Below the pieces are notes generated by a model. That model ran no database searches. It was not told the origin of the DNA and was given only the letters and a program-made list of their open reading frames with translations. Below, in pieces: positions 1,262 to 9,539 of a DNA stretch of 49,374 nucleotides (its first letter is position 1; each line of letters begins with the position of its first letter). The translations under genes were made by a program, and so were the position numbers. This DNA comes from Candidatus Peribacteria bacterium (lineage in GTDB: Bacteria > Patescibacteriota > Gracilibacteria > UBA1369 > 2-02-FULL-48-14), in contig CALRGE010000013.1 of the NCBI GenBank assembly GCA_943357175.1, positions 1-49,374 on the forward strand, written 5' to 3'.

Positions 1262-1290
1262 TTGACATTTCTTTCAAGTGGGTGTATATT
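1262..1290 (+). promoter_or_regulatory. Consensus sigma70-type promoter TTGACA-17-TATATT
   Basis: TTGACA at 1262-1267 is followed by exactly 17 bases and then TATATT at 1285-1290. This is the best -35/-10 pair in the first 10 kb. Transcription should begin near 1297. No convincing protein-coding frame starts just downstream, so the promoter most likely drives the structured RNA candidate described next. Confidence 0.65.
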
Positions 1291-1296
1291 TATATG

Positions 1297-1596
1297 AATC
1301 GTTCATTGATATTAACGGCGAAACGGGGGAAGAACATGGTTCCAAAGGCCTAAAAACCTTTCCAGCCAGCTGCTTCCCAAGTTTCAATAGCAACAATAAG
1401 CCTGTTTACGTATCCTCCCAAAGATCCGTAGGCACCTTAAACTCATTTCGAATGGGATTTGTATTCGAAAAAAAGTGAAGGACAGATTGTTTTGAAAGGT
1501 GACTTTCAAGGCAAGGCATAATTTCAGTGATGAATTATAATCTACCTTAAGCTCTCATCTGATGCCGAAACTGCTATTGAACACTTGGGATCTTTT
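1297..1596 (+). ncRNA. Candidate structured non-coding RNA, class unknown
   Basis: This roughly 300-base stretch has no good coding frame but begins at a consensus promoter and ends at a T-tract (1592-1596). Visible hairpins are: a composite stem GGGAAG/CTTCCC around AAAGG/CCTTT (about 1328-1378); TTTCGAAT (1446-1453) with ATTCGAAA (1463-1470); and TTGAAAG (1492-1498) with CTTTCAA (1503-1509), closed by a GTGA tetraloop of GNRA type. The ends can also pair: GTTCA (1301-1305) with TGAAC (1578-1582), and inside it CGGC (1316-1319) with GCCG (1564-1567). I compared it by eye with tmRNA, RNase P, 6S and SRP RNA and found none of their signatures. A 66-codon GTG frame at 1278 begins inside the promoter and is probably not real. 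Confidence 0.42.
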
Positions 1597-1647
1597 TGTG
1601 TCTGCGCCAAGCTTGACTAAATGCATGTTTGGTGCTTAAATAGGCAC

Positions 1648-2034: not shown

Positions 2035-5000
2035 ATGGTCTATAAAAAGGATTTGATTAACGGCGAAGATGAGGAGAATGCAGAGCCTGAAAAAATGGAA
2101 GCCAATCCGGAAGTTAGACTTGAAGATTTAACTAACGAAGAACTTCGTGAGATCGGTTCTTTTACCTCCGGTCATCTATTTCAATCCATTTTGGGCGACA
2201 AAAATGAAAGAGACTTTTCAAGAAGACTTTTGAAATTGGAAAAAGAAGATAGGCAGTTGATTGCAGAAGCAAAGTCTAGAATGTATCCAGAAGACAAGAT
2301 TAAATTCGATGAAGTTCTAGCAAATTTTGCTGAAGAAAGAAGTCTCTTGGATTTGATAAAAAAGATAGGTGTTAGATGTGGGAAAATTCCATTTATTTTA
2401 TCGTTCTCCGAAGTTTACAGGAATAATTTCAAACTTTTTGAGGAAATTGTAAATCTTATTACAAGGGATTTTGAGTTTGATGTTTATTTTGCGGAACAAT
2501 ATAAACCTGAAGAAGTAAAGAAAAATAAGCATAAATTGGATTTCTTAGGATTGTCAAATTGGCATAGGTTTGATCATAATAAACAGCGCTTATTTAGTGA
2601 AATTTTAAAAAATTACAGTTTGTTATATAAAGACAATTTTGAAAATCTCAAACAAATTGTTGGGGCAGTTGATTATTGTGATTTTTACTCAGATAATGAA
2701 CAAATGATTGAAAACATTAAATCAGAGGGAATCAAACAAATTGTTGGGAATGACGTCTCAAAGCTTCAAAAAATCCTCTATCTACGCAGGTTGAGAGGAC
2801 CGAATTCAATCACATTTTTGAAAGAAATCTCTGAATCAATAACAAATAATGATGAGCTTTTTGATCTTTGGATGAAAATTATTTTTAAATCTTCTTATTC
2901 AGCAAATACCTTATCTGATTCTACTTTGGAGTGTCTCAGAGAAATTAAGGATAAAGTTCATTCAGATCCTGAGATGTATAAAATTTTGGACAATAATAGT
3001 CATTTGTTTTATGGTCAGTTTGAAAAAACTCGGTTTTATTATGATTTGCTAAAAGATGACAAGGAGTCTGCGGAAATTTTGATGAAAAATAGAAATGACT
3101 ATGGTCGGAATGAAGACTGGAAGACAAGCAACAGTGCCTATTATGGATTTATCAAAAAAGATAAAAAAGCCGGTGAGCTTATTACAAAATATTTGTATCC
3201 TAATTTTGGGAATGATCTTGAAACTGCAACTTTCTATTTTGATCTAATTTCTGAAGATACTGAAGCTGGTGAAATAATCTTAACAAAAATGAAGGGTTAT
3301 CACTTCGATTTTATGGGTAAGAAAGATTTCTTTGAAAGGCTCTTTAATCTTGTAAAAACTGATCATGAATCAGGACAAATCCTCATGAAATATTGGGGCC
3401 GCTATGTTGATCTCTGGACGGGAAATTTAGCAAGTGATTTTGAGGACATGCAAAAGTACAAAGATGTTTACGAATACACCATGGATGAAGTTTCCAGTTT
3501 ACACATTAAAAGTTTTGACTTGAAAAAACGCATGCTGAGAGAAATGCAAAAAGATAAAAATCGAGCAAAAGAGATCGTTAAATATTTGAAATTGATGAGC
3601 GTAAACTACTCTGGAAGTTATAGTGAATCAACAATTGATGGGCTCATTTTTTTAATAGAAAAAGCTGAGCTTGGCGGTGAAGTTTATATGGAATATCCTG
3701 GCAGACTTGGAGATGGTGAAGATGTTGAAAAGCCTGAAAAGGATTTAGCAAAATATATGCTCTCATTGCTTGAAGAGAAACCAAGCTTTATACAGCATTT
3801 GGATATTAATATTAGGTTCATTTTTGACGATAATGAATTTGTGATCCAAGCTTCTCGAGCTTTTAAAAAAGATTATATCGCAGGTAAAGCTCTGCTTCAT
3901 TTTTATTTTAGTGGTTTTGATAAAAAAAGTGATTTTAGAGATTTTTGTTCCGCACTTGTTGAGGAGAATTCACAGGCGGCACTTGTTATTAGTTATTTTG
4001 TTGGGTCCGAAAAAAGTGATAGAAGTTTGCCTTATCCTACACTTTTCGATGAAAAAGATGAAGATGAGATCAGGTTTATTTTTGATTTGATTAAGGGAAA
4101 TCACGAAACGGGAACAGTATTTCTTGAGAATTTTAAAACTCATACTTTTCTTAGAAAAGATAAATTTGATAAAGATACGATCAAATTTTATTTTGATTTA
4201 ATTCAGAAGGACCGGTCAAAGACAAAAGATTTAGTTACTTATTTTGACGTGATTGGTTCAAATAAAGATTTGGCTGCTTATATTTTTGACTTGCTGAAAA
4301 AGAATAAAGAACAGGTTTGTCAAAATTTAAAAAAAGCTAAGGATTTGATAAATTGTGATTTAAATCGTGCAAAAATAGTGGAAAAATATTTTGAAGAATT
4401 TGATACTTATGATCAAAAAGCTTTGGGGAAATTCTATAATATTTATGTTAATGAGGGTGAAGAAAAAGCTCAGGAATTTTTATTGAATATGAAGAAAAAA
4501 GCCAATGGCTTGATTAAGTCGGAACTTCCAAGTGATTTACGTGAAGATGATGAATATATGCTCTATATTAGTCATGTGTTTCCGTCGGGGAATTATTCAA
4601 ATTATCAAACTAATTTATCTTGCGGAGATAAGCTTGAGCATGTTGAAGGCTACAAATTTAAAAGGGAGGGCTATCCGGTTGAGATGTCCGGACTTTATGG
4701 TTACAAATTGATGGAAGGGAAAAAAGCTGACTCGGAGCTTTTGAAAAAATACACGGACAGACTTGAGAAAATTAGAACTTTTGTTTCGAGTCGTGGTCCG
4801 GATAATGAGACTCTACAGAAGGCATTTATTGAAAAAGTTGATGCAATTTTCAAAAAAGAAGCACCCCAGGAATATCAAAATATCAAGGATCTTTCTTTTA
4901 AAGAAAAAATGGAGATTTTGTTTTTAAATGAGGTTGCTAAAATTGCGAAAAGTAAAAAATCAAAAGTTAGAGGTAAGGGGTATAAAGGTGGAAATGTTGA

Positions 5001-6204
5001 TGAGTATAAAGCCAACCCGGAAATTTTGGATTTGATAATTGAATACAAGTACGCATTTGATGAGAATTTGGAGGATTACATAAGGCGAACTGCGGATGAG
5101 ACAAAATCATTCAAAGATGAGGAGAGTCAAAATTTCAATTTATTGAGAGAACTTTCAACTGTATATGGAGAAAACTTGAAGCATGTACTCCGACATGATC
5201 TTTTTGATAAGTTGGAAGAGGAAAGCAAAAATAAAGATGAGATAATTAGAATTTTTGATGAGCAGGTTGTAGAGAATCAAAATTTTGAACTCAGTGAAAA
5301 ACAAATTGAAAGATTTAAAAATACTTTTGAAAATCCTAGAATACCTAATGAAAAAAGATCTGAGTTGCTGAGAAGTCAGTGTTATAATGTTTTTTCCGTG
5401 AATGTAAAATTTAAAGATGATAAGGCAAAAGACGGTTTTTATAAGCAAATTGATGAAATTTTTGAGAGTACGAAAGGACAGGATTTTTTCCAAAGTATTG
5501 GACCAAAACTTCTGGCTTTAAGACAAAAATATACTTTTGATTTAAATGCAAAACTTGAAGGACTTTTTAGTACGGATATTAATTTGATCGATTCAGAAAT
5601 TTCAAAATATGATGAGATAACTGAAATAGAAAAAAAAGAAACCGTAATGGGAGGAGAGAAATCAAAAGTTGTAGAAAAAAGTTCGAAGAAAAGAAAAATT
5701 CGCGCTTATTTCACCAAGACAAAGGAAACTGCAAATGCGCGAATGGGGGCCTATGTCTGTATTGCAGGGGATACAAGCATGTGGAAGAATCCTGATTATT
5801 TCGAGTTTGTGATGAAAGATGAAGAAAGTGGAAAATGTGTTGGACTTGCGATGCTTTTAAATATTAATGCAGAAGATGGTAAGAAGTATTTATGGTTTGG
5901 TCCAAATCCTTTTGAAGGGTTTTTAGGGCAAGTTTCTTCCGAGAGATGTTATAAATATATGTATGATTCTGTGGTAAATTTCGCAAAGGAAAATGGTTAC
6001 GATGGGCTTGTTGTTCCTTCTTCTGAAGGCCAAATTCTGGGGGCTTGTACAAATCGTGGAGGTGATTTCCCCGACTTAATTAAAAAGTCGATGTTACGAG
6101 ATGAAAAAGGACACTTAAAAGTTGTTAAATATGGTAAAAAACATCAGCTAGGTGGTGGTTATGGTTATGAAGATGGTGCTTTAATTTGGAGTGCGAAGGC
6201 TTAA
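2035..6204 (+). CDS. Large helical-repeat protein of unknown function
   Basis: This 1389-residue protein is highly charged, has no signal peptide or membrane segment, and is predicted by eye to be almost all helical. Degenerate units of about 30-38 residues recur. Each has an aromatic-rich start such as FYFDLI followed by an acidic turn and a hydrophobic helix such as GEIIL; examples begin near residues 333, 371, 400 and 432 and again near 679, 716 and 747. The last 140 or so residues (from about 1240) form a separate Gly- and aromatic-rich globular domain with the segments GPNPFEGF, SSEGQILG and TNRGGDF. This could be an enzyme-like or GNAT-like fold, but I cannot place it. A consensus promoter lies 24 bases upstream. 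It may be a solenoid scaffold carrying a terminal effector domain. Confidence 0.85.
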   Translation: MVYKKDLINGEDEENAEPEKMEANPEVRLEDLTNEELREIGSFTSGHLFQSILGDKNERDFSRRLLKLEKEDRQLIAEAKSRMYPEDKIKFDEVLANFAEERSLLDLIKKIGVRCGKIPFILSFSEVYRNNFKLFEEIVNLITRDFEFDVYFAEQYKPEEVKKNKHKLDFLGLSNWHRFDHNKQRLFSEILKNYSLLYKDNFENLKQIVGAVDYCDFYSDNEQMIENIKSEGIKQIVGNDVSKLQKILYLRRLRGPNSITFLKEISESITNNDELFDLWMKIIFKSSYSANTLSDSTLECLREIKDKVHSDPEMYKILDNNSHLFYGQFEKTRFYYDLLKDDKESAEILMKNRNDYGRNEDWKTSNSAYYGFIKKDKKAGELITKYLYPNFGNDLETATFYFDLISEDTEAGEIILTKMKGYHFDFMGKKDFFERLFNLVKTDHESGQILMKYWGRYVDLWTGNLASDFEDMQKYKDVYEYTMDEVSSLHIKSFDLKKRMLREMQKDKNRAKEIVKYLKLMSVNYSGSYSESTIDGLIFLIEKAELGGEVYMEYPGRLGDGEDVEKPEKDLAKYMLSLLEEKPSFIQHLDINIRFIFDDNEFVIQASRAFKKDYIAGKALLHFYFSGFDKKSDFRDFCSALVEENSQAALVISYFVGSEKSDRSLPYPTLFDEKDEDEIRFIFDLIKGNHETGTVFLENFKTHTFLRKDKFDKDTIKFYFDLIQKDRSKTKDLVTYFDVIGSNKDLAAYIFDLLKKNKEQVCQNLKKAKDLINCDLNRAKIVEKYFEEFDTYDQKALGKFYNIYVNEGEEKAQEFLLNMKKKANGLIKSELPSDLREDDEYMLYISHVFPSGNYSNYQTNLSCGDKLEHVEGYKFKREGYPVEMSGLYGYKLMEGKKADSELLKKYTDRLEKIRTFVSSRGPDNETLQKAFIEKVDAIFKKEAPQEYQNIKDLSFKEKMEILFLNEVAKIAKSKKSKVRGKGYKGGNVDEYKANPEILDLIIEYKYAFDENLEDYIRRTADETKSFKDEESQNFNLLRELSTVYGENLKHVLRHDLFDKLEEESKNKDEIIRIFDEQVVENQNFELSEKQIERFKNTFENPRIPNEKRSELLRSQCYNVFSVNVKFKDDKAKDGFYKQIDEIFESTKGQDFFQSIGPKLLALRQKYTFDLNAKLEGLFSTDINLIDSEISKYDEITEIEKKETVMGGEKSKVVEKSSKKRKIRAYFTKTKETANARMGAYVCIAGDTSMWKNPDYFEFVMKDEESGKCVGLAMLLNINAEDGKKYLWFGPNPFEGFLGQVSSERCYKYMYDSVVNFAKENGYDGLVVPSSEGQILGACTNRGGDFPDLIKKSMLRDEKGHLKVVKYGKKHQLGGGYGYEDGALIWSAKA

Positions 6205-7868: not shown

Positions 7869-8141
7869 TTATTTCTTCGCTTTGAAAGCGCGCATTATTT
7901 CATCAATCATTTTTTTGTGCTCTGATTTTTTGTCGGAGGCAAAAGCATGCTTTCCACATGTCTCCAAATGGCTTTCCAAAGTGGACTCGAAGGCTGAATT
8001 TAGTAGTCCTTGTGCAGATTTTATTTGTTGAAGAATGTCCATGCAGTATTTGTCATCCTCCATCATTTTTTGAATTTTTGTACCGAGGCTGACGGTTTTT
8101 TTTACTGCGATCAATGCTTTTTTCTTGTATGGTTCAATCAT
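7869..8141 (-). CDS. csoR: CsoR-family copper-sensing repressor
   Basis: This 90-residue all-helical protein is of the CsoR/RcnR/FrmR family (DUF156). The metal-ligand pattern of copper-sensing CsoR is intact: Cys33, then His58 (25 residues later), then Cys62 (4 residues later). This is the exact spacing of the copper ligands Cys36/His61/Cys65 in the mycobacterial protein. Such tetramers bind operator DNA when copper-free and let go on Cu(I). The gene is divergent from the HMA-SafE-cupredoxin/CopA operon, with a palindromic operator between them. It leads a minus-strand operon that continues into a membrane protein, a micropeptide and an Fe-S carrier fusion. Autoregulation together with copper-induced expression of both arms is the natural reading. 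Confidence 0.9.
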   Translation of the reverse strand: MIEPYKKKALIAVKKTVSLGTKIQKMMEDDKYCMDILQQIKSAQGLLNSAFESTLESHLETCGKHAFASDKKSEHKKMIDEIMRAFKAKK

Positions 8142-8161
8142 TATGTTGACTTTAAATTTTA

Positions 8162-8186
8162 ATACCTATACCCTAGGTGCAGGTAT
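8162..8186. promoter_or_regulatory. Palindromic CsoR operator candidate
   Basis: The 63-base gap between csoR and the divergent copper-export operon holds a dyad of ATACCT and AGGTAT around a CCTAGG core (25 bases). Its inner half-sites ACC...GGT resemble the C/G-tract-containing operators of CsoR regulators. A TTGACT lies at 8146-8151, and AT-rich candidate -10 boxes (for example TATCAT at 8191-8196, 8 bases before the ATG at 8205) flank the dyad. Bound repressor would therefore block promoters in both directions. The exact -10 choice is not certain. Confidence 0.6.
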
Positions 8187-8204
8187 CTTATATCATAAAT
8201 TTAT

Positions 8205-9539
8205 ATGTCAGACAAATCTAAAATTTTAAAGCTTAAAATTCATGGGATGCATTGTGCAAGTTGTGAATTTCTTATTGAAAAAGAGTTTAAAAAAATTCCG
8301 GGTGTTGAGAAGGTGAGTGTTAATCATGCGAATGGTAGAGCAAAACTGATATGTTCGGAAATTCCAGAAATGAGTGAATTCGAGGAAGTATTGAAGAAGC
8401 ATAATTATAGCTTAGAGGGAGCGGGTGGCAGCTTGACTTCGTCGAGTACGCTGGAAGATCATGCACAAACTCTTACAATTTTTGTGATTGTTATTTTGGC
8501 ATATATGCTTTTGAAACGGCTTGATTTTTTGCCATCGGATTATGGAATTAAAACGGAAATGAGTTTGTTGTTTATTTTTATGATGGGACTTGTTGCTTCG
8601 CTTTCGACTTGTTTGGCTGTAACAGGTGGATTGCTCATTGCGGTTTCAGCGAAGTTCGATGAGCTACATCAAAATTTAAGTCCTTTCCAGAAATTCAAAC
8701 CACATATCTATTTTAATTTGGGAAGAATTATTTCTTATACTATTTTAGGTGGATTGATTGCCTATCTCGGTTCTTTTTTGAATTTTTCTTCAACCGTAAC
8801 AGGATGGATAACGATTTTTGTGAGTTTTGTTATGATTATTTTAGGATTTCAATTGTTGAAAGTTTTTTCTTGGACAAAACATTTTATGCCTAAGATGCCT
8901 AAGTTTTTGGCGCATAAAATTGATAACGCGAAAGATTCGGAACATTGGTCTGCACCATTTTTTCTTGGAGCGGCCACATTCTTTCTTCCATGCGGATTTA
9001 CGCAGGCGCTTCAATTATATGTTTTGAGCCAAGGTAGTGTTCAGGTTGGAGCACTTACTATGTTTGCTTTTGCGATGGGAACTTTGCCTGTGCTTTTGTC
9101 ACTTGGAACACTTTCGAGTTTTATAAAAGGCGAGGGTTTGAAATATTTTTTGAAAATTGCAGGAGTTTTGGTGGTTTTACTAGGAGTTTTGAGTGGTGTG
9201 GCAGGTTTGAGATTGCTTGGATTTGATTTCTCATCGACGCCTGAAAATGTTTCTTCCAACGTTGAAATTGTTGATGGAAAGCAGATTGTTGAAATGAAAA
9301 TTATTGGGCTTGAATATTATCCGAAAAATATAACTGTAAAGGTTGGCATTCCTGTAGTTTGGAAAATTGATGCTAGTGGGGCGAGAGGCTGTGGTTCATC
9401 TCTAAGCGTTCCTTCTTTAAATATTTTGGAATTTTTATCAGGCGAAAAAACTATAGAATTTACACCTGAAAATATAGGTACGATTCCATTCACATGCAGT
9501 ATGGGAATGACTTCCGGATCATTTAACGTGACACCATGA
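8205..9539 (+). CDS. HMA - SafE/TauE-like membrane - cupredoxin fusion protein
   Basis: This 444-residue protein has three parts. Residues 5-75 are a heavy-metal-associated (Atx1-like) domain with GMHCASC (Cys17, Cys20). Residues 88-345 form a membrane core of about six or seven helices of the SafE/DsbD-like sulfite-exporter superfamily, with [11 protein letters not shown] and FFLPCGFTQ, each placing a Cys inside the membrane region. Residues 350-444 are a cupredoxin-like beta domain ending in a possible copper site (Cys in [10 protein letters not shown], with a further Cys in GARGCG). The order suggests copper passes from cytosol through the membrane to an outside cupredoxin, or that the protein reduces or delivers copper. 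The copA gene follows with an ATGA overlap, so the two are translationally coupled. It is controlled by the CsoR operator just upstream. Confidence 0.85.

Follow-up and report, generated by a model that had tools for sequence, protein, structure and literature searches.

A candidate family of stand-alone, probably horizontally spread structured RNAs with competing 5' and closing helices in Candidatus Peribacteria and their relatives

Introduction

Stand-alone structured RNAs without known function are a familiar category. The OLE, ROOL and GOLLD RNAs all form homo-oligomeric complexes (PMC12286853). The candidate RNA described here lies in a window (the whole stretch of DNA analysed) of 49,374 nucleotides from a Candidatus Peribacteria bacterium (GCA_943357175.1, contig CALRGE010000013.1). 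It resembles these three RNAs in being stand-alone, non-coding, multibranched and lineage-limited, and in having possible loop-loop contacts, but it is only about 300 nt long and gave no Rfam match to their models. OLE, ROOL and GOLLD may be regarded as its nearest analogues in style, without homology.

Three further comparisons are relevant. 6S RNA (RF00013) is likewise a stand-alone, trans-acting RNA with its ends held together, but its shape is a single long helix interrupted by a central bubble, whereas the window RNA is multibranched, patchily distributed and unmatched by the 6S model. tmRNA (RF00023) and RNase P RNA (RF00010) are of similar size and have closed ends, and a boxA-like leader is found on this genome's tmRNA gene too; both genes, however, are located elsewhere in the genome and neither model matched the locus. 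Terminator-type riboswitches share the arrangement of mutually exclusive helices on a common strand, one of them the terminator, but most copies of the window RNA have no downstream gene on the same strand, and a separate promoter precedes nearly all of them. Literature searches brought up no publication on small or non-coding RNAs of Peregrinibacteria. The window RNA appears to represent a new class, matching no known family, and not a new principle. The reading preferred here, held with moderate confidence, is that the window RNA belongs to a new family of structured RNAs which are encoded by stand-alone genes and act in trans. Strand exchange would bring about its folding and termination, and the gene would have spread horizontally as an accessory gene.

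Promoter, extent and coding potential

An intergenic RNA gene of approximately 300 nt was delimited on the forward strand, its ends being placed from the promoter to the T-tract (Table 1). It is flanked upstream by a PEMT-domain gene (758-1243) and downstream by an orphan open reading frame (1621-1929, 102 aa). Use of the upstream protein as a query against the genome contigs returned no relatives.

The original prediction, of a promoter-driven structured RNA belonging to no recognised class, is supported by the sequence comparisons below. The TTGACA-17-TATATT promoter that it named matches at 11 of 12 positions and was the top-scoring site within positions 700-2100; transcription is expected to start near 1297. 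The terminal T-tract that it described was confirmed at 1593-1597. Among the 22 copies of the family described below, a promoter was present upstream of 20, mostly with an extended -10 element (TGnTATTAT).

Genome G002 contains two RNA copies in tandem (G002:C2:76739-77352). The first has a promoter without a T-tract and the second a T-tract without a good promoter; with a single promoter and a single T-tract between both copies, the pair looks like one transcription unit.

The predicted lack of a credible coding frame also stood. The only candidate was a 66-aa frame with a GTG start (1278-1478), which matched no protein family and was disrupted in all 16 aligned relatives. Although this frame is present, a small-protein gene, or a set of hairpins arising by chance, has a practically negligible probability, given that conservation resides in base pairing and not in codons.

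Table 1. Features of the predicted RNA gene, in window coordinates
Feature	Position	Strand	Remarks
Promoter	1262-1290	+	-35 TTGACA (1262-1267), 17-bp spacer, -10 TATATT (1285-1290)
Whole RNA gene	1297-1597	+	Promoter to T-tract; match to model R2 at 1373-1592, 196.6 bits
boxA-like leader element	1301-1311	+	GTTCATTGATA; at the RNA's 5' end, shortly after the expected start
P0, 5' hairpin	1320-1385	+	Basal strands 1320-1332 and 1373-1385; 3' strand doubles as 5' strand of P1
P1 5' strand, closing and putative terminator helix	1375-1392	+	Pairs with 1572-1590 (18 bp, one bulge at C1582)
P2 5' strand	1399-1401	+	Partner strand 1564-1566; the window copy forms two of the three pairs
P3 hairpin	1403-1434	+	Conserved loop UCCCAAA
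P4 hairpin	1435-1481	+	Loop GGGnUU; two-sided changes in 14 of 17 pairs; contains the top covarying pair
P5 5' strand	1483-1487	+	CAGAU, pairs with AUCUG at 1557-1561; encloses P6 and P7
P6, 11-bp hairpin	1488-1513	+	GNRA tetraloop GUGA (1499-1502); two-sided changes in 10 of 11 pairs
P7 hairpin	1515-1542	+	GNRA tetraloop GUGA (1527-1530); GUAA, GCAA or GAAA in relatives
P1 3' strand	1572-1590	+	Rival of 1320-1332 for the shared strand
U-tract, putative intrinsic terminator	1591-1597	+	Follows P1; T-tract in 21 of 22 copies

Leader element

The motif G[AT][AT]C[ATG]TT[GA]A was found in 18 of the 22 copies, 63-118 nt 5' of the modelled core, and was missing from 4. The boxA consensus, which is bound by NusB/S10, is GYTCTTTAANA (PMC5725501). 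The leader motif comes close to this consensus but mostly deviates from it in detail, with CATTGA in many copies. Another boxA-like sequence, GCTCTTTGAAAAC, lies directly 5' of the tmRNA at position 1501 of locus L004 in the window's genome (G000:C17), suggesting that Nus factors may be loaded onto non-ribosomal RNAs in this lineage. The 16S leaders lacked the exact motif and carried their own boxA-like sequences (CCTTTGACA/CCTTTAACA), which are related but different. The leader element of the RNA is probably a boxA.

Consensus fold

Folding of positions 1292-1600 gave a free energy of -84.8 kcal/mol (z -3.4), equalled by none of 100 shuffles; the minus strand of the region folded less well (z -2.2). 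In the consensus, P1 closes the whole fold around a multibranched core, P2 to P7, with two GNRA-type tetraloops. The hairpin with a GTGA tetraloop that had been pointed out beforehand corresponds to P6 (helix 1488-1498/1503-1513) and is comparatively supported. The second such loop, on P7, had been overlooked. Nested pairing of the two ends, also proposed beforehand, was right in kind, as realised in P1, but did not hold for the extreme 5' end, which forms a hairpin of its own, P0.

Within the core, the short helix P2 had 98% of cells paired and two-sided changes in all three of its pairs, and its alignment columns 34-237 form the second-highest covarying pair overall. P5 had 97.6% of cells paired, with the variants CAGCU/AGCUG, CAGGU/ACCUG and CGAAU/GUUCG in relatives; it took the place of an earlier reading, a triloop of 3 bp towards the 3' end, which was dropped once 17 sequences had been aligned. 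The GGG loop of P4 could possibly kiss the CCC loop of P3.

P0 and P1 use one common strand and are mutually exclusive. Many relatives have a 5' strand and a 3' end that are near direct repeats (in G008, for example, TGAAACTTGGGG occurs twice), so that both are able to pair with the intervening strand. The direct-repeat match was not significant in the window copy; its P0 nonetheless covers the P1 strand. Genomes G005 and G002 retain the competition between P0 and P1 with a longer hairpin. The competition may be a termination or processing design alone, without a functional switch.

Covariation

The alignment of 17 sequences had 89.3% of cells paired, compared with 38-45% when partners were slid by 1-3 columns. 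Two-sided changes were present in 53 of the 78 base pairs, a count reached by none of 500 shuffles, and no shuffle matched any of the pairing measures. For a tree-aware null, substitutions were redistributed over a FastTree tree and pairs were scored by G-test with APC. At E<0.05, 7 of the 78 structure pairs were significant compared with 0 of 23,575 other pairs, and slid controls gave 0-1. The six top-scoring pairs of the entire alignment all lay within the structure. The covariation, which had been named in advance as the check on the fold, thus goes beyond phylogeny, and the fold of the RNA has been kept by evolution.

Comparison with known RNA classes

The statement that the RNA belongs to no recognised class was borne out. 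A scan of the window against Rfam 15 returned no family at the gathering threshold, the only matches being chance snoRNA matches with E>5. In 13 homologous loci the RNA was also unmatched, apart from a lone sub-threshold SR1 match (24 bits against a required 45, E 0.99). No tRNA or tmRNA was found in the region of the RNA, with neither RF00023 nor ARAGORN giving a match. The prediction had found no tmRNA or RNase P signature; the true genes were recovered elsewhere in the window's genome, the tmRNA on G000:C17 (114 bits) and the RNase P RNA on G000:C1 (162 bits).

SRP RNA gave no Rfam match at the window or the 13 homologous loci, and the same loci had no match to the 6S model. Two observations would fit a diverged housekeeping RNA (SRP, 6S, tmRNA or RNase P): the small bacterial SRP RNA model, the only SRP model used for this search, found nothing in the whole genome G000 (rated 100% complete), and the 6S model was scored at the window and homologous loci rather than genome-wide. 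Against this stand the separately located tmRNA and RNase P RNA, the absence of an SRP S-domain motif from the alignment and the absence of the window RNA from most relatives, unlike a universal RNA. Since its distribution is patchy and Rfam matches were lacking, including at the 13 homologous loci, SRP or 6S identity is unlikely, and a housekeeping RNA of any of the four kinds is scarcely credible.

Copies and distribution

A first relative was detected among 59 related genomes as one weak blastn match in an intergenic region of G027 (Ca. Peregrinibacteria GW2011_GWF2_39_17, LBWM01000004.1), where a complete homologue has different neighbours. Covariance model R1 was built from two sequences (window and G027) and model R2 from 17 sequences. 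Across 288 genomes of the class, model R1 detected at least 17 copies, which were carried by 14 of the genomes (E 1e-15 to 1e-52); across 89 genomes of the window's order, model R2 detected at least 21 copies, carried by 18. One copy in G115, a member of another order, brings the family to at least 22 copies from 19 genomes. As the large genome searches scored only some of the candidates in each genome, all these numbers are minimum values. The usual number was one copy per genome. In a phylum sample of 380 genomes, no copy was found outside the order.

Exact-motif searches (ACAATAAGCCTGYTTAYG; AATAAGCCTGYTTA...GTGATG) retrieved the window and G027 copies only, besides chance matches. Weak matches in the tail of the R1 search (L104-L109 and L113) were lost under the refined model R2. 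The copy in G010 (G010:C2:8903-9135) was weak (46 bits), with neither a recognisable promoter nor a partner strand for P0, and is possibly decaying or degenerate; that of its congener G023 is intact.

Probable horizontal transfer

Within one genus, the RNA differed by 10-20% at 97-99% 16S identity. In the window's family it was 53-58% identical at approximately 87% 16S identity, the sister pair G002-G005 being an exception (RNA 72%, 16S 92.5%). Between G115 and G061, which belong to different orders, the RNA was 84% identical and the 16S 78% identical. Scoring of as many as 150 candidates in each genome revealed no copy in five other members of the order of G115, four of them in its genus. The same was true, again with at most 150 candidates per genome, of eight members of the window's order, including G001 from the window's family and G062 from the genus of a carrier. 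Because a fast-changing RNA shows greater similarity across orders than 16S does, and because it is absent from close relatives yet 84% identical across that distance, the pattern is best explained by horizontal movement between lineages.

No homologue was found in viral, phage or plasmid sequences, and blastn against phage and plasmid sequences gave nothing meaningful. A pattern match in a viral contig (L166) and four further candidates (L167-L170) were rejected, as they did not match the covariance model.

The same distribution bears on whether the RNA is a selfish or mobile element that spreads by insertion without benefit to the host. Such an element would account for the patchy presence, varied sites and duplicates, and for the RNA being more alike than 16S between orders. 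Members of genus g17, however, have the RNA at shared sites, as do those of the window's family in part, the RNA is usually single-copy, and the strong promoter and complex conserved fold suggest a function; a selfish element is accordingly judged unlikely. Transfer as an accessory gene remains the preferred reading.

Genomic context and proposed mode of action

Of 16 contexts, 14 had the nearest downstream gene in the opposite orientation to the RNA; in the window and G027 it was co-directional. Neighbours were functionally unrelated and, as named from sequence only, included genes of an EF-G/EF-Tu region, CorC-like, ABC-F-like and TerC-like genes, and others. A cis-acting leader or riboswitch would have its core sense a ligand, with the choice between P0 and P1 setting termination before the downstream gene. 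The shared-strand architecture does resemble a terminator/antiterminator, and the two co-directional contexts would permit such control. Yet the orientation in the other 14 contexts argues strongly against this reading, nothing evident is common to the downstream genes, and almost all copies carry a promoter of their own, so that a leader or riboswitch is considered highly improbable. Because of the same orientation, the locus is taken to be a gene for an RNA that would act in trans.

For this trans-acting RNA the following course is proposed, its order of P0, core and P1 being taken from the direction of transcription. Transcription would begin near 1297, and the boxA-like leader would load Nus factors, by which the untranslated RNA could escape Rho. 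The P0 hairpin would form first. The core would fold next and return the 3' end to the shared strand, upon which P1 would zip up, displace the 5' strand of P0 and, together with the U-tract, end transcription. Once finished, the RNA would be a compact particle braced by its tetraloops and would act in trans, most probably through binding to a protein or to another copy of the RNA, and its gene would spread horizontally as an accessory gene. Protein binding or self-assembly is suggested by the fold, which is compact and bears two conserved tetraloops, and by the CCC loop of P3 and the GGG loop of P4, both of them conserved. Complementarity of the RNA to 16S rRNA was no better than that of shuffled sequence, and such pairing is unsupported.

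As a best guess, the RNA was acquired horizontally and acts in trans by binding protein or assembling with itself. A more specific version is offered very tentatively: exchange between P0 and P1 in this transferred RNA would make the RNA's termination depend on the core fold being complete, and the released, tetraloop-braced product would self-assemble or sequester a protein in these ultra-small bacteria. If such coupling were true, only correctly folded RNA would be released. The conserved strand-exchange design would make the RNA's own closure its terminator. An RNA class absent from Rfam now has a fold supported by covariation, a working covariance model and defined signals at its 5' and 3' ends. 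The bacteria concerned have genomes of about 1 Mb, and the RNA seems to pass from one order to another with no vehicle in sight.

Other genes in the window

Two further features of the window were recorded. An open reading frame of 1389 aa (2035-6204, forward strand), located 3' of the RNA gene and the 102-aa orphan frame, had no Pfam or NCBIfam match. At 7869-9539, a metal-sensitive repressor gene on the minus strand adjoins a gene for a protein with HMA, DsbD-like and cupredoxin-like domains, and this region is a probable copper-handling locus.
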